DNA from: Marinitoga sp. 38H-ov
Lineage (GTDB): Bacteria; Thermotogota; Thermotogae; Petrotogales; Petrotogaceae
Direction: 5' to 3'
DNA: 64,000 nucleotides
NCBI RefSeq assembly: GCF_011057715.1
Contig: NZ_LNGH01000002.1
Coordinates: forward strand, 1 to 64,000
The translations under genes and the position numbers were made by a program. The notes beneath the pieces are model-generated. The model was not told the origin of the DNA, ran no database searches, and saw only the letters and a list, made by a program, of their open reading frames with translations. Shown here piece by piece: positions 35,862 to 49,880 of the stretch (within the stretch, counting starts at the first letter, position 1; every line of letters begins with the position of its first letter).

Positions 35862-36659
35862 ATGATTAATTTAATTTTAGCTATAATATGCAGTTCTCTT
35901 ATCGCTTTAATATTTAAATATTCACAAAAATTCAAACCAAATATTTTTTTAGTAACTTCAGCTAATTATTTTATAGCATCAATGATTAGTTTTTTTTTAA
36001 TAGATAAAAATTTTACAAATTTTCCAATTCTACTTGGTATTCCAACAGGATTAATATTTTTTCTTTCATTCTTATTTTACCAAAAAAGCATTAAAAATAA
36101 TGGAGCAACACTTTCTGGAGCTTTTGCTAAATTAGGTATTTTATATCCAGTTTTTTTATCAATGGTAATATGGAAAGAAATACCTAAAATTATTAACTTA
36201 GCGGGAATATTTTTAGCGATATTAGGAATAATAATCATTTATTTTCCTGCTAAAGGGATAAAAATAAATTCCGATTTAATATTATTATCTTTATTTGGAG
36301 GAATATCCGAATTTACTAACAAAATTTTTCAGAAATACGGTATGATTGAACAAAAAGATATATTCTTATTTTTTGTATTTTTATCAGCTATGATATTTAG
36401 TTTATTTAAAGTAAAAAAACTATCAAAAAAAGATATTATTATAGGCTTTTTAGTGGGAATACCAAATTTGTTTTCTTCATATTTCTTAATATTGGCATTA
36501 GATAATATATCAGCTCCAATTGTATTTATTTCCTATTCTACAGGAAGTATATTATTAATTACATTAGTTAGTTATTTCTATTTCAAAGAAAAAATTAGTA
36601 TCAATCAAAAAGTTGGCCTTTTTACAATTTTAATTTCTTTGATATTATTAAATTTATAA
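35862..36659 (+). CDS. EamA/DMT-family permease
   Basis: This 265-residue protein has about ten hydrophobic helices in two EamA-like halves, with a WKEIP motif at the end of the first half and FKEKIS at the equivalent place in the second. Substrate unknown; the superfamily exports metabolites or drugs. Its end overlaps the convergent sbcC by six bases. Confidence 0.85.
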   Translation: MINLILAIICSSLIALIFKYSQKFKPNIFLVTSANYFIASMISFFLIDKNFTNFPILLGIPTGLIFFLSFLFYQKSIKNNGATLSGAFAKLGILYPVFLSMVIWKEIPKIINLAGIFLAILGIIIIYFPAKGIKINSDLILLSLFGGISEFTNKIFQKYGMIEQKDIFLFFVFLSAMIFSLFKVKKLSKKDIIIGFLVGIPNLFSSYFLILALDNISAPIVFISYSTGSILLITLVSYFYFKEKISINQKVGLFTILISLILLNL

Positions 36660-39452
36660 CTCAATAATATTTTCTGCCATTTCAGAAAAAGTTCCATCAT
36701 GAGTTACTATAAAAGCTTGTTCAATTTCGTTCAGCATATTTTTAAGGTTTTCAGCTAACATATTTCTTCTTTCTTCATCAAGATTTATAGTAGGTTCGTC
36801 TAATATATATAAATTAGCTTTTGATAATAAATTTGCTAAAGCTGTTCTGAGTGATATAGCAACACTTACTTGTTCACCGCCAGATAAAATTGAAAATTCT
36901 CTTTTACCTTTTGATGGATCTTCAAGTATTACTAAATAATCTTTTTCAGAATCCCAAATAATAGTTTCATTTTTTCCAGTCATCTTTCTATAATTTTCTG
37001 TAGCTAATGATGATATGAATTTTGTAAATTCGGAACTAACATATTTTCCCATAGATTTTATGTTATTTCTAAAATCTTTTGTTAGGGTTAATTTTAATTC
37101 GTATTTTTTTAAACTTAATTCATATTTATTTTTTTGTTTTTCAATTTCCATTTTTTCTTGTAATTTTATATTTAGATTTTTTAATTCATTTTTATATTCG
37201 CTTAGCTTAGATGAAATTTCAGTGCTTTTTTTGTGTAAATCGCTAATTTTTGATTCGATTTTAGATAATTCGTTGTTTAATACCTCTATATTATCATATT
37301 CATTTACTTTCTTATTGAGATTTAGTATGTTATTTGATATATGAGATATTTCATTATTTATTTTTTCTAAGTCTAAATTGAATTTTTCTAATTTCTCAGC
37401 TAAATCTTTATTTTTTATATAATCTTCGTATTTTTCTTTTAATAATAATTTTTTCTTTTCTTTTTCTCTAATATTGTTTTCAATGCTTTCTACTTCTACT
37501 AATATTTTTGATAATTCTTTTTCTTTTAAAGTTAAAGTATGTATACCACTATTTAATTCCTTTATTTCCAATAAATGTGATTCTTTGTTTTTATTCAAAT
37601 CATCAATATTATTTTTTAATTTGTTTATTTCCACATTATTTTTATCTATATTTTCCTTTAGATTTTTTAATTCATTTTCCAATTTGCTTTTTTTAAAAAT
37701 AATATTATTTTTCTTATTTTCAAAATCATTTTTTTTCTCATATAGATTTTCGTATATTTTTTCTATATTATTTTTTTCAATAATTTTTTCCTCTTTTTGA
37801 TTTTTAATTTTTTCTATATCTAACAACTTATTTTTTATAGTTTCAATATGTACTTTGACATCATTAATTTTATTTTCCAATGTGCCCTTTTTATTTTCTA
37901 AATCTACTAAAGATATTAATTTTTCATTAATAAATTCTATTTCTTTTTCTAAATTTATAATATTTAAATCAAAGTAATTAGTACTCCCGCCTTTTTTTTC
38001 TAAGTTAATACATTTTTCATTTAAAATGGGGCAAATACCATCTTGTAGTTGTTCTTTAGATTTTTTTATATTTTCTAATTTTAAAATCACTTCTTTTTGC
38101 TTAAACTCAAATTCTTTTTTTTCATATAATTTCAAAATTATATCATCTAAAGAATTTTGAAAAATATTCAATTCATCCTCTTTCTCCTTTAAAATTTTTC
38201 TTAAATATTCCTCTTCTGAAATTTTATTGTTAATGTCATTTATACTTCTTTCTAATTCTTTATACTTTTCATAATCTCTTTTAAATAACTCAAAATCTTC
38301 TAATAATTTTTTTTCAGTATTAATAATATTATTCAATTCATTTGTTTTCTCTATTAAATTATTGTTTAGTTTTAAGTTTTCGCTTAATAATTCATTTATA
38401 GAATTTTCACTTTCTTCTATTTTCTCATTAATATTTTTTATTTCAACTTCTAAGACGTTAATATTATTTAATTTTTTATTTATATCCTCTTGTATTTTTT
38501 TAAGTTCTTTTTCTTTATTTCTCAACTCTCTTTCTTTCATATACAAATTATTTAATTCATGCTCTATTTCAATATATTCATTATATCCACTTTCAGTATT
38601 ATTAACTATTTCTGTAGCTTTTTGAGATTCAATTATTTGTTTTTCAATAGTATTTTTATTCTTTTCTAAAATTTTCTTCTTTTCTTTTTCGTTATATAAA
38701 GTATTATTTAATGTTTTTAGATCATCAAGTTTTTTTTGAATGGCTTTTCTTTCATTTTCTAAATTAGAAAATATTTCTTCTAACTCATTTTTTTCTTTTT
38801 CAATATTAAAAATATTATTTTTAATATCTTTAATGTTGTCTTCAATATTTTCATAATTCTTCAATTGTTCAGATAATATATTAATTTTTTCATTATCTGC
38901 TAATATTTTTTTACTGTATTCATTTTCAACACTTAAAAGCGAAGAAAATATTTTTTCATAAATTTCTGTATCAAATATTTTATTAAACAATTCTTTTCTT
39001 AAAGCAGGGGTTAGATTAAAAATATTTACTAAATCATTTTGATATGCACTAATTATATTTTTAAAAATATCTTTAGTATTTTTACCATTTATACCAGCTA
39101 ATTCACCAATTTTTTCTAAAACAATATTTTTTCTTTCAGATATAATATTTCCATTTATATCCCTTAAAACATATTTGCTTTGACTGCCTATTTTTCTCTC
39201 TACAATATAATCAACAAAATCATTTCCAGTAAATTCAACAATTATTGTTGCTGTTTTTTCTTCTTTGCTTACAGCGTTTTTTAAGTTGTTATCTCTTGGT
39301 TCAACATCGAAAAGAACTATGCCTAAAGCTTCAAAAATGGAGCTTTTCCCTGCACCGTTTTTACCTAATAATAAATTTATTCCAGATTTAAATTCAAGTG
39401 TAGTATCTCTATGATTTCTATAGTTTCTTAATTGAATTTTATTAATTTTCAT
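36654..39452 (-). CDS. sbcC: SbcC/Rad50-like ATPase
   Basis: This ~932-residue SMC-like protein has N-terminal Walker A LLLGKNGAGKSS, long coiled coils, and C-terminal signature ILSGGEQVSVAISLRTAL plus Walker B LYILDEPTINLDEERR. It works with SbcD on DNA double-strand ends and hairpins. The hook at mid-chain reads GICPILNEKC (Cys474 and Cys481), that is C-x6-C instead of the canonical zinc hook CxxC. The ATG at 39452 is preferred over a GTG at 39461 lying within the ribosome binding site. Overlaps sbcD by 11 bases. Confidence 0.92.
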   Translation of the reverse strand: MKINKIQLRNYRNHRDTTLEFKSGINLLLGKNGAGKSSIFEALGIVLFDVEPRDNNLKNAVSKEEKTATIIVEFTGNDFVDYIVERKIGSQSKYVLRDINGNIISERKNIVLEKIGELAGINGKNTKDIFKNIISAYQNDLVNIFNLTPALRKELFNKIFDTEIYEKIFSSLLSVENEYSKKILADNEKINILSEQLKNYENIEDNIKDIKNNIFNIEKEKNELEEIFSNLENERKAIQKKLDDLKTLNNTLYNEKEKKKILEKNKNTIEKQIIESQKATEIVNNTESGYNEYIEIEHELNNLYMKERELRNKEKELKKIQEDINKKLNNINVLEVEIKNINEKIEESENSINELLSENLKLNNNLIEKTNELNNIINTEKKLLEDFELFKRDYEKYKELERSINDINNKISEEEYLRKILKEKEDELNIFQNSLDDIILKLYEKKEFEFKQKEVILKLENIKKSKEQLQDGICPILNEKCINLEKKGGSTNYFDLNIINLEKEIEFINEKLISLVDLENKKGTLENKINDVKVHIETIKNKLLDIEKIKNQKEEKIIEKNNIEKIYENLYEKKNDFENKKNNIIFKKSKLENELKNLKENIDKNNVEINKLKNNIDDLNKNKESHLLEIKELNSGIHTLTLKEKELSKILVEVESIENNIREKEKKKLLLKEKYEDYIKNKDLAEKLEKFNLDLEKINNEISHISNNILNLNKKVNEYDNIEVLNNELSKIESKISDLHKKSTEISSKLSEYKNELKNLNIKLQEKMEIEKQKNKYELSLKKYELKLTLTKDFRNNIKSMGKYVSSEFTKFISSLATENYRKMTGKNETIIWDSEKDYLVILEDPSKGKREFSILSGGEQVSVAISLRTALANLLSKANLYILDEPTINLDEERRNMLAENLKNMLNEIEQAFIVTHDGTFSEMAENIIEL

Positions 39453-40584
39453 TTTCTTCACCTTCTAAAATCACATCTAAAAAATGATCAAATGAATCAA
39501 AGATTTCTTGTGAATTATCATATACCTTATTTTTTAATGTTTCCAAATATTCAATAGTTTTTTTACTATTTGCAGAATAAATATTATCCCATGTTTTTAT
39601 AATATTTTCTTCTATAACTTTTTTATCTATGTTTTCTATATCATAACTTTCTGATATATTAGAATAATTTATATTAAATATCACCTTTAGCGCACCTTTT
39701 TCTAATAATATTTTTTCATAATTATCGATATTATCAATACTGTTTTTTGAATTAATATTTATTTTAATTATTTCACCTTTTTCAATATCTAAATTTTTTA
39801 TTTCAAAAAAATTTGAATCAAAATTGTATGTAGATATTTTTCTTTTTTTTGATTCAAAAAATTCATATTTATTTGTCTCGGTATCATATATAATATAACT
39901 TTTATTACCTTTTTCATTTAAATCCCAGTATTCTGGACATCCTGGTACGAAAAAATATGGATTTTCTTTAGGATAATATTTATATGTATGCAAATGACCT
40001 CCAGCTATATATAAAACTTTACCTTTAAAAAGGTCAATAATTTCACTTTTTGTGCATCCAGGAATAAAATTTCCTCCAATACCGGTATGAACAATAACAA
40101 TATTTTTATTATTTTCATCAATATTTTTTGATAATTCAATCAAAACTTCATCAATTATTACTCCCTGATACGGCACTCCATAGAAATAAATATTATCTTT
40201 GATATATGGTTCAAAAATAAAATTATCATTAATTTTTTTAGTTTTTGGCATTATAACTAAATTCCTATTTTCTAAATACTTTATCCATGAATCGTCATGA
40301 GTATATATCTTATCGTGATTACCTTCAATTAATAACACATCTATATTATTTTCTTTTAATTTATTTAATATTTTTTCAGTTCTAAATAATATATCAGGTA
40401 ATAATGAACTTCTATCAAATAAATCTCCTGCGATTATAAATACGTCTACTTTATTTTTGATAGCTTCATTAACTATATATTCAGCCGCATTAAAATAATC
40501 TTCATATCTTGTTTTAGAATATTCACCAATACCACCAACAGGGCGCCTTCCTAAATGCCAATCAGATGTATGCAATATCTTCAT
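39442..40584 (-). CDS. sbcD: SbcD/Mre11-like nuclease
   Basis: This 380-residue metallophosphoesterase has the five Mre11 motifs: HTSDWHLGR, AGDLFDRS, EGNHDKI, IVHTGIGG and AGGHLHTYKY. It is the nuclease partner of SbcC. The C-terminal ~100 residues would bind the SbcC coiled coil. Third gene of the addB-addA-sbcD-sbcC operon. Confidence 0.95.
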   Translation of the reverse strand: MKILHTSDWHLGRRPVGGIGEYSKTRYEDYFNAAEYIVNEAIKNKVDVFIIAGDLFDRSSLLPDILFRTEKILNKLKENNIDVLLIEGNHDKIYTHDDSWIKYLENRNLVIMPKTKKINDNFIFEPYIKDNIYFYGVPYQGVIIDEVLIELSKNIDENNKNIVIVHTGIGGNFIPGCTKSEIIDLFKGKVLYIAGGHLHTYKYYPKENPYFFVPGCPEYWDLNEKGNKSYIIYDTETNKYEFFESKKRKISTYNFDSNFFEIKNLDIEKGEIIKININSKNSIDNIDNYEKILLEKGALKVIFNINYSNISESYDIENIDKKVIEENIIKTWDNIYSANSKKTIEYLETLKNKVYDNSQEIFDSFDHFLDVILEGEENEN

Positions 40585-40598
40585 TTTTTCACCTACAA

Positions 40599-43500
40599 TT
40601 ATAATTTAATTATTTTCTCTTCTAATAGCTTTTCAAATTTTTCATTTGGTTCTACTTCTATTATTTTCCCATTTTTCAAACTAATAACATAACCTTTTTT
40701 AGGGAATCCAAAATCTTTTAAAAGATACATATAAAACTGTAATTGGAATTTGTAATCATTAATTTTTTCAGGATTATTTAAATCAGAATATTTATAATCC
40801 AATATTTCAATATTATTATTTTCAAAGACGACCCTATCAGGAACCCCAAAAATCATATATTCTTTATTATTTATTATTTTTCTTTTTACTAATCGCCATT
40901 CTGTTTTATAATTTTCATATGAAAATAATCTTTTTATCAAATTATTATCTAATTCTTTTGGAAGTATATCTAATTTAATTAGATTCTTTATTTGGCTAAA
41001 ACTATTTATACTTTCCATTAAAGAATGTAATTCAGTGCCCTTAAAAATATATTCCTGTTCAGAAAAGAAATCATTTAAATCCACTTTTATATAATTTTCA
41101 TCTGTTAAATCTTCGCTGGTTTCCTCTCTTTTTAATTCATTTATGATATATGTAGGTGCAATATATTTCTTATACGCAAAATAATTTAAATCTTTTAAGT
41201 TTTTTTCATTAATATCAGCCGTCATATTATTATTAATATTTTCTTTAGGTTTAATTTCGTATTTTATATCATTTGAAGAAATGATATCTATTTTTTCATA
41301 TTTAACTTTTTTAAATAATTCAGATAAAGTATTGGATTTTTTATTTTCAACAATAATAGGAATCAACATTTCCTTAGGTCTTGTTATAGCTACATATAGC
41401 AATCTTAATTCTTCGGTATCTTCTAAAAATTTATTAATATCAAACATTTTTAAATATTTTTCACCAAGTTCTATTTTTATCTTATCCTGCATAGACAGTG
41501 AAGATATATCCATACTTTTTATCTTTTTTAAAAATAATTTTTTTAATATGAAATATCTTATATTATTATCCGGAAGAGAAAATTCAACATTTTCTTTAGA
41601 TATTTTCATATCTTCATCACTTTTTTCTTCACTATTAATTTGTGATTTTTTATCTAATCCACTTAAAATCACAATTGGAAATTCTAAACCTTTTGATTTA
41701 TGTATAGTTAAAACCCTTACAACATTTTGTTTTTCATCTTCTATAGCTGCTTCACTTTCTGTAAGTTCAGATGTTTTTCTAAGTAATCTAATTAATTCTG
41801 AAAACGAAACCGCTAATGTATTATATTGTTCTGCTTCGTTTATAAGTTTTTTCACATTAGCTATTGCATAATGAGAATCAGGTAGTATAGTTAATTTGGA
41901 TAAATAATTATTTTCTGTAATTAACCCTTTTAAGATAATAGTGGGCTTTAAATAATATTTTAATTCTACATACTTTTTTAAAACTTCAAATCCTTTTTTT
42001 TCAGAATCAGATAATATATTTTCTTTTTCAACTGTTTCATATAATGATTCATATTTTTTTTCTTTTTTAATTTTTACTAATTTATTTAATTTTTCAAAAT
42101 TCATTCCAACCATTAAAGACATCATATAGCTTATAAAATTAAAATCATTATGTGGGTTTTGTACAGCGTTTAATGCTAGTAATACAGTCTGAACCTCGTT
42201 TTTGTTATAGAATGATTTACTACCTAAAATATAAAAAGGAATATTATACTTTTTAAAAGCAATTCTAATAGGTTCTTCTGAATTTTTTAATTCTCTAACC
42301 AAAACAGCTATATCATTATATTTAATTTCTCTTTCTTCAAAAACTATTTTTCCATTTTCTCTTTTTCTAAATTTCATTTTTTTCCCAATTAAAGAATTAA
42401 TAGTTTTAGCAATTGTTTCATATTCCACATAATTCTTGTTATCTTTAGAAACAAACACATATTTTATTCTATGTATATCATTATTCCCAATAGTTGGAAT
42501 AACGTCATCTTTGGTTTCTTTTTCATATTCTGATTTATCCTTATCTTCACTATATAATAAGCTATTAAAAACGTCTATGTATTCTTCTTTGGAATAATTT
42601 TCTAAAAACTCTTTATTAAACAAAACATCTTTTGAGAAAGCATTTGCAAATTCTACAATTGAAGCATTTGAACGTCTGTTTATGTTTAATTGAAATCTGC
42701 TATTTTCATCAAACTCTTTCTCTGTAACAGCAAAAACAGATACATCAGCACCTCTAAATCTATAAATTGATTGCTTTCTATCTCCAACATAGAATATATA
42801 ATTATTTTTATTATGAATCTTATCAAATAACGCTTTTTGAAGAAAATTTGTATCTTGATACTCATCAACTATAATATATTTAAATTTTCTTTGGTATTTT
42901 TCTTTTATTCTTTCTTCATCTAAAGTTTCCAGTGTTTTATCAAGTACTCCTTTAAAATCAAATTGATATTGATCATTTGTATATGAATAATATATTTCTT
43001 GAGCAATTAATACAGATATTTTAAATAACCATAATACATCATTAAAATCTTTATTGATTAAATCTAATTCTGGAACAGAACTTAATTTCATTTCTGTTCT
43101 CCAATTTTTTAATGTATCAGACAATACATTTTTAAATGTATCTAATTTCAATTCTTTAAGTATATATTTTAAAGATTTTTCAAATATTTCTTTATTCTCT
43201 AATATTTCTTTTAAATATTTATTGACTGTGTATTTTCTATCGTTTAAAAAATTAGTTAATTCATTTAAGTCATATTCTGTATTTTCGTATAATTGAAATA
43301 ATATTTTCAAAGTATTATATATAGCTTTTTCTATTTCCAACTCCATTCTTAATTCATTAATAATGGTAAAATTAGGATCAACACCAATAATAATATTATT
43401 ATCTCTTAATATTTTAGAGCAAAAACTATCTATAGTCATTATCCATGATCTATTTAAATTAGTTTTTACTTGTCTCCAATATTTATAATTTTTCCCTTTT

Positions 43501-43742
43501 TCTAATTTTTTATCTACTTCTTCTAAAATTCTTTCTTTCATTTCACCCGCAGCTTTATTAGTAAATGTAACTGCTAATATATTTTGAACAATATCGGGAT
43601 TATTTTCCTTTTCGTATTTTTCTAATATTGCTAAATAGTATTGTGTTATAGTATATGTTTTTCCTGTGCCAGCTGAAGCAGATATAAAATAGTTTTTATC
43701 TAAGTTTTTTTTCATTTCTTCAATATTTAATACATTAGGCAT
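40599..43742 (-). CDS. addA: AddA-like helicase-nuclease
   Basis: This 1,047-residue protein combines an SF1A helicase and a RecB-type nuclease. Motifs: ISASAGTGKTYTI (I), FKYIIVDEYQDTNFLQ (II), GDRKQSIYRFRGAD (III), RVLTIHKSKGLEFPIVI (V), LLYVAITRPKEML (VI), and C-terminal DRVVFENNNIEILDYKYSD with the nuclease Asp and Lys, then QLQFYMYLL. With AddB it resects DNA ends for recombination. The ATG at 43742 has GAGGTGA six bases upstream, better than 43751. Confidence 0.94.
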   Translation of the reverse strand: MPNVLNIEEMKKNLDKNYFISASAGTGKTYTITQYYLAILEKYEKENNPDIVQNILAVTFTNKAAGEMKERILEEVDKKLEKGKNYKYWRQVKTNLNRSWIMTIDSFCSKILRDNNIIIGVDPNFTIINELRMELEIEKAIYNTLKILFQLYENTEYDLNELTNFLNDRKYTVNKYLKEILENKEIFEKSLKYILKELKLDTFKNVLSDTLKNWRTEMKLSSVPELDLINKDFNDVLWLFKISVLIAQEIYYSYTNDQYQFDFKGVLDKTLETLDEERIKEKYQRKFKYIIVDEYQDTNFLQKALFDKIHNKNNYIFYVGDRKQSIYRFRGADVSVFAVTEKEFDENSRFQLNINRRSNASIVEFANAFSKDVLFNKEFLENYSKEEYIDVFNSLLYSEDKDKSEYEKETKDDVIPTIGNNDIHRIKYVFVSKDNKNYVEYETIAKTINSLIGKKMKFRKRENGKIVFEEREIKYNDIAVLVRELKNSEEPIRIAFKKYNIPFYILGSKSFYNKNEVQTVLLALNAVQNPHNDFNFISYMMSLMVGMNFEKLNKLVKIKKEKKYESLYETVEKENILSDSEKKGFEVLKKYVELKYYLKPTIILKGLITENNYLSKLTILPDSHYAIANVKKLINEAEQYNTLAVSFSELIRLLRKTSELTESEAAIEDEKQNVVRVLTIHKSKGLEFPIVILSGLDKKSQINSEEKSDEDMKISKENVEFSLPDNNIRYFILKKLFLKKIKSMDISSLSMQDKIKIELGEKYLKMFDINKFLEDTEELRLLYVAITRPKEMLIPIIVENKKSNTLSELFKKVKYEKIDIISSNDIKYEIKPKENINNNMTADINEKNLKDLNYFAYKKYIAPTYIINELKREETSEDLTDENYIKVDLNDFFSEQEYIFKGTELHSLMESINSFSQIKNLIKLDILPKELDNNLIKRLFSYENYKTEWRLVKRKIINNKEYMIFGVPDRVVFENNNIEILDYKYSDLNNPEKINDYKFQLQFYMYLLKDFGFPKKGYVISLKNGKIIEVEPNEKFEKLLEEKIIKL

Positions 43743-46700
43743 TATTTTCACCTCTTGTAATATGACTTCTATTTTTTAGTGTATAATCACCGGTCCATAA
43801 TAATAGACTACATAATTTTTGGTATTCGCAATAATCCCCATTCCCTATTATGCAAGAATAATATTTTTCATTAGAATTTTGTACATTATAACCTTTATCT
43901 TTTAAATAATCTAAAAATCTAAGCTTTAAATTGTTATTCTCATTAATAAAAGCAGGGAAAAATTCTGCATTTTTAATGGAATTAATAATATCATTAAACC
44001 AGTTTTCAAATTCTCTTAAGCTAACTTGTTCATATGATGTGGAATTTCCTGGATATTTAATATATATACTCTCATTTTCTATTTTTATCCATTGTAATGA
44101 TTTGTATTTTCCATTTATTTCACTCATTGGTAAAAAACTAAGAAAAGTTGATTTGTCTTTTATTAGTCTTTTCCATTCATCATTGTTTAATAGAAGTAAA
44201 TAATAAAAAAATAGTTGTTCTGATTGAAAACTATTTTTATTCTTATAATCAATAATAGAATATGTTTGTTCTTCATTTTTTTTATTTGGTTTTAATTCAT
44301 TTTTTTTGTATTCAAAAATTAAGTCTTCATTTAGCTCATCTATCCTATCAATTCTTGAAAATAAAGAATAGTTATTATAATCTCCTTTAATAGAATATTC
44401 GCTTTTTAATACCTTGTTATATAATATAGTTTTTTCTTCTTTATTTTTTGATCTTGCAGAACCAAAATAAATATAAGAGGTTATTAATTTTTCAATTACA
44501 TTCACTAATTCTACAGAAGTTTCTTCTATTTCAATTTCTTTTACTATATTATATGTTTTTAATTCTTCAACGCCGGAATTATCCCAAACATCATACGCAA
44601 TACTTTTTATTTCCTTATATAGTTCATCTGTATTTTGTAATTTGGTTTTTATATTATTATAACTGGGATATTTATCAAATAATTCTTTCATTATCTTATG
44701 TTTCAAATTACCTTTATAAAATATGGAAAAATCCTTATTTGTTTTTATTTTTGCTATATAATTTAAATAATATTTAAAAGGGCAGTCCACATATGTAGAT
44801 ATTTTATTGTGACTAATCTCTCCAATATCAAATTCTTCATTTAAAATCCAATTATTTTTTATATTGCTTAATTCATTTACTTCATCAATAATTTTATTAA
44901 TTTCATCTATATTAGAATTTAAATTATTATATGAAAAATACAATGCAGCTTGATTAAACGAATAAATTTCATTTGTATTTCCAGGAATGATTTCTTCACT
45001 TTTTGAAAGGAAATTATATTCTTGTATTTTAAATATTTTTTCAAAATCCTTTTCATATGGAGAAGATAATATTTCTTCTCCAGAAAGAGTAGCTTTTGGA
45101 TATGTGAAAATAATATTATCAGCAAAAATCATTGAAATATATAAATTTTCTCTAAATTGTAGTTCAGAAATTTTAGAATAATTATTATTTTCTGTAATAT
45201 ATGAAAGAAGTGGATTGATGCCTATAGATGGATAATTATTATCAGTAAAAGATACAAAAATCTTATATTTTTTGTATACAAATCTTGAATCATTTAAAGT
45301 AAAAATTTCCACAGTATTTGAGTAGCGTTCTGAAATTCTATATTTTTCCGTCTCTATTAAACTAGATAAAATATTATAGAATTTTGAAAGTTTGATATTA
45401 CCTGTAAGTAGTTTTTCTAAGTTTTTTTCTGTTTTTAATAATAATTCTTGAAACTTATATAACGCATTTAGTTCGCTTTCTACCTTTTCTAAGTTTTTAA
45501 AATTAATTATTCCAGCGTTTATCCAATTATTTAATAGTTTTCTATAATATGAAAGTTCAAAATCATTTTTATCTATTTCTTCTAAAAGATTAAATAGAGA
45601 TCCAAATAAAGAATATACTTCTTTTATTTCTTCCAACTGTTTTTCAAGTCTTTCTTTTTCATCTGAAAAATTAATTTCATCCTCTATTTCATTTATTCTT
45701 TTTTGCATTGTGTTCAACCATTTATTTTTTCTATTTTTTAATGAAGATTTTGGGAAATCATAGAATAAATTTAAATTTTTTAATATGTTTTCTATTTCAT
45801 CTATCGATAATGTTCTTTCTCCTCCATATCCTGTTTCTACTAATGCGATTAAATCATTTATCTCATATCCGGAATATTTCGTTTTTAAAGGTAATAATAA
45901 TTTTGAAACAACTAAGCTTTCTGAAAGTGGAATATCATTTTTTAATCTATATGGAACTTTTAACTCTTCAAAAAACTCTGCAAATGCATTTGCAGTTTGA
46001 CTATCAGGAACAATTATTCCGAAATCTTGAGGCTCAAAATTTTCATATAATATTTTTCTTTTTATTTCCTTTGCAATATTTTCTATTTCCAAAACATTAT
46101 TTTTAAATTTTGCTTTATAAAATTTGGTATTAGAAAAAATATTTTTCAAATCATTTATTTTATTATTAATAATAAAACCATTTTCTTCTAAAAACAATTG
46201 TATTCTATTTAAACTATCAAATGATTCTTCATTTACTGAATTCCAAGCAAGAAAATATACATTATCAAACATATTAAATAATACATTTAATACTTTCAGT
46301 AAAATAGGTTGTAAGTCGAAAAAACCACCAATTACCAAAGTATTTCCTAGCTTTTTTTTAACTTTTGAAAAATCTTCATAAAACCACTTAAATACGCTAA
46401 TTTGATCGTAGTTTTTATTTTCTGTCCTTGAATTATCAAACTTTTCATTTAATATATTTTCTAATTTTTCCTCTAAATGTTTATATAATTTTAATAATCT
46501 GTCATCACTTTCAATATCTTTATCTATTTCAGAATATAACTTATTTTTTTCAATAATATCTTTTTCTGATATTCTATTAATTTCCCATTTTCTTTCAAAA
46601 ATTTCTAATAAATATTCAATTGACTGTTTTGATTTAGATAAAGTTTTTATATAATTTTTAAATTCGATATTATTTTTTTCTATTTCTATTAAGTCCTCTA

Positions 46701-46986
46701 ACTCTTTTGCTATATAGGCTTTTAAAAATTCTCTATCAATAAAAAGCGAAGATGGTTCATATTTTTTAAATAATTCAACAATATATTGATTTATAACCCT
46801 AAATGCATCTCTATTTAATGTTTTATTTATTTTTTTTGCTACATTTTCTGCTACTTGTTTTACATAATCGCCTGAAGGCCCAAGAAATACAAAATTTAAT
46901 GGATCTGATTCATATATTGGGATCAAAAAATTTGAAATATTCTCAAAATGTTTTTTATTTAAATCAATAATAATAGCTTTTTTCAT
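43735..46986 (-). CDS. addB: AddB-like nuclease subunit
   Basis: This 1,083-residue protein is co-encoded with addA. The N-terminal Walker A position reads FVFLGPSGDYVKQ and lacks the GKT/S, so ATP binding there is doubtful. The C-terminal nuclease has YSIIDYKNKNS with Asp and Lys. Fe-S cysteines appear as one in YVDCPFKYYLNY and three in SCIIGNGDYC then EYQKLC, giving C-x7-C-x5-C in place of the usual C-x2-C-x5-C. It is therefore a divergent AddB with structural and nuclease roles. It is the first gene of the operon and overlaps addA. Confidence 0.88.
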   Translation of the reverse strand: MKKAIIIDLNKKHFENISNFLIPIYESDPLNFVFLGPSGDYVKQVAENVAKKINKTLNRDAFRVINQYIVELFKKYEPSSLFIDREFLKAYIAKELEDLIEIEKNNIEFKNYIKTLSKSKQSIEYLLEIFERKWEINRISEKDIIEKNKLYSEIDKDIESDDRLLKLYKHLEEKLENILNEKFDNSRTENKNYDQISVFKWFYEDFSKVKKKLGNTLVIGGFFDLQPILLKVLNVLFNMFDNVYFLAWNSVNEESFDSLNRIQLFLEENGFIINNKINDLKNIFSNTKFYKAKFKNNVLEIENIAKEIKRKILYENFEPQDFGIIVPDSQTANAFAEFFEELKVPYRLKNDIPLSESLVVSKLLLPLKTKYSGYEINDLIALVETGYGGERTLSIDEIENILKNLNLFYDFPKSSLKNRKNKWLNTMQKRINEIEDEINFSDEKERLEKQLEEIKEVYSLFGSLFNLLEEIDKNDFELSYYRKLLNNWINAGIINFKNLEKVESELNALYKFQELLLKTEKNLEKLLTGNIKLSKFYNILSSLIETEKYRISERYSNTVEIFTLNDSRFVYKKYKIFVSFTDNNYPSIGINPLLSYITENNNYSKISELQFRENLYISMIFADNIIFTYPKATLSGEEILSSPYEKDFEKIFKIQEYNFLSKSEEIIPGNTNEIYSFNQAALYFSYNNLNSNIDEINKIIDEVNELSNIKNNWILNEEFDIGEISHNKISTYVDCPFKYYLNYIAKIKTNKDFSIFYKGNLKHKIMKELFDKYPSYNNIKTKLQNTDELYKEIKSIAYDVWDNSGVEELKTYNIVKEIEIEETSVELVNVIEKLITSYIYFGSARSKNKEEKTILYNKVLKSEYSIKGDYNNYSLFSRIDRIDELNEDLIFEYKKNELKPNKKNEEQTYSIIDYKNKNSFQSEQLFFYYLLLLNNDEWKRLIKDKSTFLSFLPMSEINGKYKSLQWIKIENESIYIKYPGNSTSYEQVSLREFENWFNDIINSIKNAEFFPAFINENNNLKLRFLDYLKDKGYNVQNSNEKYYSCIIGNGDYCEYQKLCSLLLWTGDYTLKNRSHITRGENNA

Positions 46987-47095
46987 AAAATCCCTCCAAA
47001 ATCATTATTTATAAAATTATATCATAATTACATAAAACATTAAAAAAAATTATATATATGATATAATTAAAAAAAAATATATTTAGGTGATAAAA

Positions 47096-49312
47096 ATGTT
47101 TTTAGATTTTCTTTATAATTATAATTTAACTAAAGATCAAAAATATGTAGCTATAGAATTAGATAAATTTATTTATAACTCTTTAGATTTTTTAATTATT
47201 CAAGGTAGTGCTGGTACTGGTAAAACATTTTTAATTTCTCAGTTTGTAAAATATCTACATAGAAAAAATTTAAACTTTATGATTTTAGCTCCCACAGGAA
47301 GAGCGGCTAAAATCATTTATATGAAGTCAAATTTTAAAGCTAAAACTATCCATAGCGAAATTTATAGCTTATTTCATAAAGAGATAAATTTAAATAATGA
47401 TGAAATTAAAATTTATTTTAAATTAAAAGACACAATTTATAATAACACAATTTTTATATTAGACGAAAGCTCTATGATATCAGACACACATCAATTAGAT
47501 GATAATTTGATATTTGGTAGTGGAAAAATCTTATCTGATCTTATAAATTATATAAAAATGGGGAAATCTAATAAAATAATATTTTTAGGAGATGAATATC
47601 AACTTCCTCCAATAAACTCAAGATATTCTCCAGCTCTAAATATTGAATATATTGAAAAAAATTTTAATATAAAAGGAGAAAAACTATTTCTAAATGAGGT
47701 TATTAGACAAAAAAGTGAAAGTTATATTTTAAAAAACGCTAATAAAATTAAAGAAAATATTAATAATAATACTTTTATTAATCTAAAACTTGAATACAAT
47801 AATAATTTTATCAAGACTGATTTATTCACAAACAAATATAATTATAAAGAACTTGGAAAAGATATAATAATAACCTCAACAAATGAAAAAGCTATAGAAT
47901 ATAATTTAAAAATTAGAAATAAATTAGGATTTAAAAATAAAATTGAAATAGGCGATATATTATTAAATACAAAAAATACCTATTTTAATGAAAAAACTAT
48001 ATTTAATGGAGAATTTTTTAAAGTCATTGATATATTAAACCATGAAAAAAAAGATGCTTTTGTCGGAAAGAATGAACATATAATTTTAGATTTTTATGAT
48101 TTGGCTTTAAAAAATGTATTTTCAGATGAAATTATAAAATTTAAAATAATATCAAATTCATTATTTTCAAAAAATACAGATATAGATATTAATTTAAAAA
48201 AAGCTATCTATAGTTTTTGTATAAATAACTTATCTCAAGAAACAAAATTACCATTAGATTTTATTATAAGAATTATGGAAAATGATCCATACTTTAATGC
48301 TTTACATGTGAAATATGGTTATGCTATAACAGCACATAAAGCACAAGGCGGTGAATGGGATAAAGTATTTATTGATCCATATTATTATAATTCACCAAAA
48401 ACAAAAGAATATTATCAATGGCTATATACAACTATAACAAGGGCAAAGAAGTGTGTATATATTAAAGAATTACCTATAAGAACATTTCCATATAACAAAT
48501 TGAAATTAAAGAATGATTTTTATATAAAGAAAAATATAAATATTTCTTATAATTTAAATTTTTCAAATTCTCATTTAAAAGAATTATATCTTGCTTTTAG
48601 AGATATAATTTCAGATAAATATTTTGAAATAATCGGTGTTGAACATTTTAAATATCAAGAAATATATTATATAAAAAAGAACAATGAATATTTAAAAGTT
48701 CAATTATATTATAATAAAAATTTCGAACCTACACGGTTAAAGGTAATGGAATCAACAGATGAAAAAACAGCTTTTGAATTTTTAAATATATTTGATTTAG
48801 AAAAACAAAATAATATGGAAGAATTACAGAAAAATGATATAGAAAAAAATAATTATATAGAAAACGAAAAATGTATAAAAATTTATATAGATGGCAGTTA
48901 TGATCATAATATTAGAAAATTTGGAGCGGGATTTGTAGTTTTAAAAGATACTATTGAGAAATATTGGAAAGGATATATAAAAGAAGAGTATATAAAACAT
49001 AGGAACGTGGCTGGAGAAATATTTGCAGCATTACTTGCATTTGAATATGCAAAAAATGAAAATTTAAAATGTATTGAAATAAATTATGATTATGAAGGTA
49101 TAGAAAAATGGGCTTTAGGTCTATGGAAAACAAATGCGGATTTAACAAAAATATATAAAGAAAAATATAACTATTATTGTAATTTCTTTAAAATAAGATT
49201 CAAAAAGATAAAATCACATTCTGGAGAAAAATATAATGAAATATCTGATGAACTAGCAAAAAAAGCAGTTTATGAAGAAAATTATAATGTAAAATACGAT
49301 ATTGATATATAG
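47096..49312 (+). CDS. RecD-like SF1B helicase fused to RNase HI
   Basis: This 738-residue protein has an N-terminal helicase: QGSAGTGKT at 36-44, ILDESSMIS (II), FLGDEYQLPP (III) and HKAQGGEWDKVFIDP before YTTITRAKKC (V-VI), as in RecD/TraA proteins. The C-terminus is an RNase HI domain with the full DEDD set: Asp599 in IYIDGSY, Glu641 in AGEIFA, Asp665 in NYDYEG, Asp718 in ISDELA, and His708 in KSHSGE. A helicase able to expose RNA-DNA hybrids joined to an RNase H suggests R-loop or primer removal. The ATG at 47096 follows AGGTGA. Divergent from the addB operon. Confidence 0.92.
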   Translation: MFLDFLYNYNLTKDQKYVAIELDKFIYNSLDFLIIQGSAGTGKTFLISQFVKYLHRKNLNFMILAPTGRAAKIIYMKSNFKAKTIHSEIYSLFHKEINLNNDEIKIYFKLKDTIYNNTIFILDESSMISDTHQLDDNLIFGSGKILSDLINYIKMGKSNKIIFLGDEYQLPPINSRYSPALNIEYIEKNFNIKGEKLFLNEVIRQKSESYILKNANKIKENINNNTFINLKLEYNNNFIKTDLFTNKYNYKELGKDIIITSTNEKAIEYNLKIRNKLGFKNKIEIGDILLNTKNTYFNEKTIFNGEFFKVIDILNHEKKDAFVGKNEHIILDFYDLALKNVFSDEIIKFKIISNSLFSKNTDIDINLKKAIYSFCINNLSQETKLPLDFIIRIMENDPYFNALHVKYGYAITAHKAQGGEWDKVFIDPYYYNSPKTKEYYQWLYTTITRAKKCVYIKELPIRTFPYNKLKLKNDFYIKKNINISYNLNFSNSHLKELYLAFRDIISDKYFEIIGVEHFKYQEIYYIKKNNEYLKVQLYYNKNFEPTRLKVMESTDEKTAFEFLNIFDLEKQNNMEELQKNDIEKNNYIENEKCIKIYIDGSYDHNIRKFGAGFVVLKDTIEKYWKGYIKEEYIKHRNVAGEIFAALLAFEYAKNENLKCIEINYDYEGIEKWALGLWKTNADLTKIYKEKYNYYCNFFKIRFKKIKSHSGEKYNEISDELAKKAVYEENYNVKYDIDI

Positions 49313-49322
49313 GAGGTATAAA

Positions 49323-49880
49323 ATGAATATATTAGAATTAGCAAAAAACAGAAAAACAGTCAGAAAGTTTTCTAAGGATATTCCACCAATAGAAGATATA
49401 AAATATGCTATAAATATTGCAAAAGAAGCCCCATCTGGAAAAAATGATCAACCTTGGTTATTTATTTTAATAACAAACAAAGAAGAAAAAGTAAAAATTA
49501 GAGAAATTTGTGAAAAAGGAGAAAAAGCTTTTTATAAAAATTCTAAAGGCAGATTAAAAGAATGGTTGGATAAAATGAGCTTTTCTTGGGAAAAAGATTT
49601 TTTATCAGAAGCCCCATATTTATTATTTGTATTTTCAAATTCAAAATCACCATTCTCAAAAGAATCTGTATGGATATCAATTGGTTACTTACTTTTAGCG
49701 TTGGAAGAAAAAGGATTATCAACAGTTACATATACGCCTTCTAATTATAATGAAATATCAAGATTTATAAATCCACCAGAAAATTACAAACTTGAAGTAA
49801 TACTTCCAATTGGATACTCAATAGATAATAAACATAAATACGCAAGAAAAGATTTAGAAGATATTCTCATAATAAGATAA
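49323..49880 (+). CDS. Nitroreductase-family flavoprotein
   Basis: This 185-residue FMN-dependent oxidoreductase starts MNILELAKNRKTVRKFSKD, with the FMN-phosphate Arg motif, and continues with EAPSGKNDQPWLF. It follows the RecD-RNase H gene by 10 bases with AGGAGGT, so it is co-transcribed. Substrate unknown. Its stop lies in a long hairpin shared with mog. Confidence 0.9.
   Translation: MNILELAKNRKTVRKFSKDIPPIEDIKYAINIAKEAPSGKNDQPWLFILITNKEEKVKIREICEKGEKAFYKNSKGRLKEWLDKMSFSWEKDFLSEAPYLLFVFSNSKSPFSKESVWISIGYLLLALEEKGLSTVTYTPSNYNEISRFINPPENYKLEVILPIGYSIDNKHKYARKDLEDILIIR

Follow-up and report, generated by a model that had tools for sequence, protein, structure and literature searches.

A TOTE-related helicase joined through a TBP-like repeat to RNase HI in Marinitoga sp. 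38H-ov

Results

We analyzed a 64,000-nucleotide stretch of Marinitoga sp. 38H-ov DNA, hereafter the window. On its forward strand lies a gene for a 738-aa protein (47096-49312, with ATG at 47096 and the stop at 49312), whose reading frame is backed by orthologues; a GTG at 47087 could serve as the start instead. Pfam searches with the protein matched SF1 helicase families over residues 11-456 (AAA_30 at 4e-16, AAA_19, UvrD_C_2, and PIF1), TBP-TOTE (PF22721) at residues 494-557 (9e-13, 48 bits against a cut-off of 27), and RNase_H (PF00075) at residues 594-725 (38.5 bits against a cut-off of 25.8). The AlphaFold2 (AF2) model has an overall pLDDT of 88 and consists of three ordered regions plus one disordered linker. 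From these data we delimited, all on the plus strand, an SF1B helicase of the Dda/RecD2 type (residues 1-470, 47096-48505), a single TBP-like repeat (residues about 491-570, 48566-48805), a variable linker (residues 571-592, 48806-48871), in which residues 572-590 have a pLDDT below 50, and an RNase HI domain (residues 593-728, 48872-49279). An earlier note on this DNA had described a helicase fused to RNase HI in one open reading frame. Both halves were found at that place, but the third domain between them, the TBP-TOTE repeat, had been overlooked. At the level of the sequence, the fusion of an intact SF1B helicase to an RNase HI with a complete set of catalytic residues in one polypeptide is confirmed.

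Upstream, a divergent intergenic region (46987-47095) separates the fusion gene from an addB-like gene, the nearest member of an AddBA-SbcDC cluster on the minus strand (36654-46986). Within this region, TTAAAA-16-TATAAT at 47040-47067 matches a promoter-like consensus, although such matches are not above the chance number there. Downstream, a nitroreductase-family gene (49302-49880, plus strand) overlaps the stop of the fusion gene and adjoins it in five of the seven genomes of the genus. The previously noted position opposite AddBA-SbcDC is real in the window, but among the other genomes of the genus it recurs in G001 only; a purD-like gene lies upstream in G003, G004, and G005, and the upstream genes differ again in G002 and G006. 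Since the upstream genes vary in most of the genus, a general coupling to AddBA-SbcDC is ruled out, and the arrangement is weak evidence for function. The neighbors of the fusion are mostly housekeeping genes.

Helicase motifs I, Ia, II, III, IV, V, and VI are all intact, as the earlier note had stated, and include GSAGTGKT (residues 37-44), DESS (123-126), GDxxQLPP (165-172), RQ (204-205), HKAQGGEW (414-421), and TITRAK (446-451). A Foldseek search placed T4 Dda first (3upu, E 7e-26), followed by DSH9 and RecD2 (3gpl, E 2e-17), and the PDB sequence match was to a Dda-type helicase (9kwf, 1.5e-14). Scores for the RecD and RecD2 equivalogs were far below the curated NCBIfam cut-offs (RecD2, 113 of 500 bits; RecD, 66 of 310). 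The label "RecD-like" thus needs correction: Dda is nearer in fold than RecD2, both equivalog cut-offs are missed, and the nearest sequences are TOTE/PDC-M16A helicases and a stand-alone RecD/Dda-like helicase of Bacteroidota (about 475 aa). The latter is about 35% identical over the helicase but, unlike the fusion, has neither TBP nor RNase H.

The TBP repeat was modeled with a pLDDT of 92 and has the order helix-four strands-helix. PDB fold matches to this model were weak; the best plausible one was RnlA (prob 0.9, E 0.25), and RNase HIII was absent from the best 50. RnlA/RNase LS is an HBD-RNase H protein with further domains, yet it differs from the fusion in being a HEPN RNase toxin that is paired with the antitoxin RnlB and lacks a helicase. 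The RNase H part matched an RNase H-related protein in the PDB (2kq2, E 6e-14). It has the RNase H fold with the D-E-D-D set and a catalytic histidine that define RNase HI, and all five residues claimed in the earlier note, D599, E641, D665, D718, and the assisting H708, could be found and are invariant in fifteen TBP-RNase HI sequences. RNase HIII likewise carries a single TBP-like repeat directly N-terminal to an RNase H (PMC4132731). However, its catalytic domain is of the RNase HII type and it has no helicase, whereas the catalytic domain of the fusion belongs to PF00075, type 1; the likeness of the two TBP domains is one of architecture.

All seven genomes of the genus have the fusion gene, the proteins of the six relatives being 52-72% identical to the one in the window, and the gene also occurs in three genomes from another family of the class (G075, G083, and G088), each of a different genus. 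Within the genus it is intact in six of the seven. In the remaining one (G003, 87% complete; L005/L140), the frame changes within the linker, near an A6 run, so that helicase-TBP and RNase HI lie in different frames, both halves being otherwise open. We considered a programmed -1 frameshift and rejected it; the A6 run is out of register for a classical X_XXY_YYZ slippery site, which makes an ordinary indel or an assembly error likelier.

Across the nine intact fusions, K43, D123, E124, and the GDxxQ, RQ, HxxQG, and TR residues of the helicase are invariant, as are D599, E641, D665, H708, and D718 of the RNase H domain. Differences from the two nearest species amount to 19-21%, 10-11%, and 36-37% at codon positions 1, 2, and 3, respectively. 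The conservation of the whole frame in other species, with changes mostly at the third position, implies that the reading frame is not a chance one. The linker is the only part that changes freely (7-27% identity among orthologues). Judged from sequence comparison, the pattern is consistent with purifying selection acting on each of the three domains. In a non-exhaustive search outside the phylum, the triple fusion was not found in 297 genomes of the Bacteroidota-side phylum; no phage or plasmid record covered TBP plus RNase H, and the reading frames read on viral contigs held no TBP-RNase H.

The PADLOC models for PDC-M16A, which is the helicase component of the TOTE conflict systems, a family predicted to act in phage defense, matched the helicase-TBP half at 1e-127. 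As a control, Bacteroidota helicases without TBP scored about 380 bits against the same models, hence the match reflects helicase kinship rather than function and is ruled out as proof of a defense role. Relatives on plasmids of Sulfurospirillum, Klebsiella, and Acinetobacter are DUF4145-helicase-TBP-TBP proteins of 907-979 aa with a downstream DUF7017-S1/CSD partner that often has TPR matches (PDC-M16B). The fusion is collinear with these proteins through helicase and TBP-TOTE repeat, but it lacks DUF4145 and has RNase HI in the position of their second repeat. A TBP profile that we built found exactly one repeat in every fusion, followed by RNase HI, and two repeats in most PDC-M16A comparators (one only in G082). 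TOTE systems pair such a helicase and TBP-TOTE domain with a TPR plus OB/S1-CSD protein. The fusion has a PDC-M16A-type helicase, a non-specific trait, and the TBP-TOTE domain in one copy; no genome with a fusion gave a DUF7017 match, although the same search recovered the canonical pair in G046, and the genes beside the fusion are of other kinds. The fusion is thus kin to TOTE helicases but lacks the partner that a TOTE system has.

A search of the fusion's own genome (99.96% complete) with PF00075 recovered no other protein, and RNase HII is encoded separately. The same is true of PF00075 in six of the seven genomes of the genus. The exception is G004, where PF00075 matched twice more, once in an RnlA-like HBD-RNase H protein. 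HBD-RNase HI is the form that other genera of the family encode, and HBD was not found in six of the seven genomes of the genus (again except G004), which suggests that the TBP repeat occupies the place normally taken by HBD. Both kinds are RNase HI with a small N-terminal domain, but the fusion has a TBP repeat plus helicase instead of the HBD/viroplasmin domain, and in a tree of RNase H domains TBP-RNase HI stood apart from HBD-RNase HI (99/97). Outside the genus the situation differs: in G075, G083, and G088 further RNase HI genes accompany the fusion, which is patchy there. In those lineages the fusion is thus accessory, and its function may differ.

One family of the class has short, helicase-less TBP-RNase HI proteins (246-277 aa), which in G084, G085, and G087 are the only RNase HI. 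Except for a weak match in G086, the short-form genomes gave no relative of the fused helicase, so TBP-RNase HI is a working unit by itself. The short form of G087 (L134:3129-3962) nested among the fusions in the RNase H tree (87/94), and its RNase H is 76% identical to that of the window's fusion; it lies in the same locus as the much more distant short forms of its congeners, which looks like in-place allele replacement. A single clade of all short forms was weakly rejected (AU p 0.04). Taken together with the nesting, this suggests that the helicase was lost, or the allele replaced, probably at least once, and that TBP-RNase HI is the constant unit.

Discussion

As a rule, RNase H and the helicases that act on R-loops are different proteins. 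On balance, we lean toward the view that the fusion serves the cell as its main RNase HI, and here as its only one, with a TOTE/PDC-M16A-type motor, one TBP repeat, and RNase HI in one chain. Since the genome encodes no other RNase HI, RNA is probably removed from DNA here by a motor-driven enzyme. A motor-assisted RNase HI is the economical reading of the integrity of the domains, their conservation, the status as sole enzyme, and the lack of a TOTE partner gene. The likeliest history is that a helicase once of the conflict type was taken over as the genus's RNase HI, with R-loops or primers as its inferred substrates.

The 5' to 3' polarity of Dda, RecD2, and Pif1 is known, and the motor of the fusion would load next to a hybrid, on single-stranded DNA, and travel in that direction. 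R-loops are a substrate of PIF1-family helicases (PMC10641170). The TBP repeat could grip the RNA/DNA hybrid by analogy with the TBP-like N-domain of RNase HIII, which binds only RNA/DNA hybrid and is HBD-like in function (PMC4132731); in RNase LS, too, a fused TBP-like domain has been interpreted as hybrid targeting (PMC3710099). The tethered RNase HI would then cleave the RNA strand and the motor would displace the pieces, so that R-loops or primers would be cleared. In this scheme the motor would descend from a conflict-system helicase. The fullest version, in which a helicase of conflict origin was recruited as the genus's only RNase HI, TBP replaced the hybrid-binding domain, and cleavage is coupled to ATP-driven translocation, we put forward only tentatively; it would add another way of recognizing hybrids. 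Several observations run against the main reading: the fusion is accessory in three genomes and broken in a fourth, the fold matches of the TBP repeat are weak, and, as the short forms indicate, RNase H function needs no motor.

One alternative is that the gene is a one-gene, TOTE-like anti-phage effector, in which helicase and TBP would recognize hybrids of phage replication or transcription and RNase H would destroy primers or transcripts. The strong PDC-M16A match, the relatives on plasmids, the patchy presence beside other RNase HI genes in G075, G083, and G088, and the report that RNase H domains are frequent in TOTE systems (PMC12458937) all point that way. We nevertheless consider it unlikely, given that the TPR/S1-CSD partner was not found, that the fusion is present throughout the genus (seven of seven genomes), usually as the only RNase HI and among housekeeping neighbors, and that stand-alone helicases without TBP match the PDC-M16A models too. 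Because TALON-type relatives of TOTE contain inactivated RNase H folds (PMC12458937), the RNase H domain might be inactive and only recognize hybrids or RNA. With its four acidic residues and histidine invariant in 15 sequences, and no other RNase HI in the genome, this is very improbable.

The main reading must also be weighed against the idea that helicase and RNase HI have separate jobs and merely share a chain, with no mechanical coupling. In favor of this idea, the linker is flexible and changes fast, the frame break in G003 falls in that linker and leaves both halves otherwise open, and helicase-less TBP-RNase HI exists, in one case nested among the fusions. Yet the join has been kept across at least four genera, and the TBP repeat accompanies RNase H without a helicase as well as the helicase in PDC-M16A, which suggests that it links both. 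We therefore regard independent halves as a rather doubtful explanation, and retain the motor-assisted enzyme as the preferred one.

In the literature searched, we found no publication on the triple fusion or on PDC-M16, and the view of the earlier note that no characterized protein of this architecture is known stood within that scope; the literature covered did not extend to the primary TOTE review (Aravind and others 2022), where such fusions may already be mentioned. RNase H domains in TOTE systems have already been reported, and the triple helicase-TBP-RNase HI architecture is a variant on that theme. With motor, putative hybrid grip, and nuclease in a single enzyme, coupling between translocation and cleavage in R-loop removal would become directly testable. 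If the proposed function is true, the fusion would clearly exemplify how core genome maintenance can acquire a helicase from a conflict system. Should the host be thermophilic, as its probable placement suggests, the protein could also be a thermostable tool for hybrid removal.

Other RNase H arrangements were seen during the analysis. Several genomes of the Bacteroidota-side phylum (L164:3802-4509, L166:3841-4530, L167:3593-4300, and L168:3839-4546) encode, directly 3' of a coaBC/dfp-like gene, an RNase HI of 229-235 aa with an unassigned N-domain of about 95 aa. This N-domain may be another hybrid-binding module; profile comparison with TBP gave an E of 0.19, and we do not count such proteins as TBP-RNase HI. 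The RnlA-like protein of G004 (L172:2020-3875) is full-length, with 493 aa comprising an HBD-RNase HI that retains its catalytic residues and then a region resembling RNase LS, and the next gene encodes a possible RnlB antitoxin of 123 aa. For RNase LS of E. coli, an interrupted RNase H part has been reported (PMC3710099). Lastly, a 600-aa open reading frame on a viral contig (L152:3782-5584) combines HBD-RNase H with a long C-terminal part and may encode a virus-carried protein of the RnlA type.
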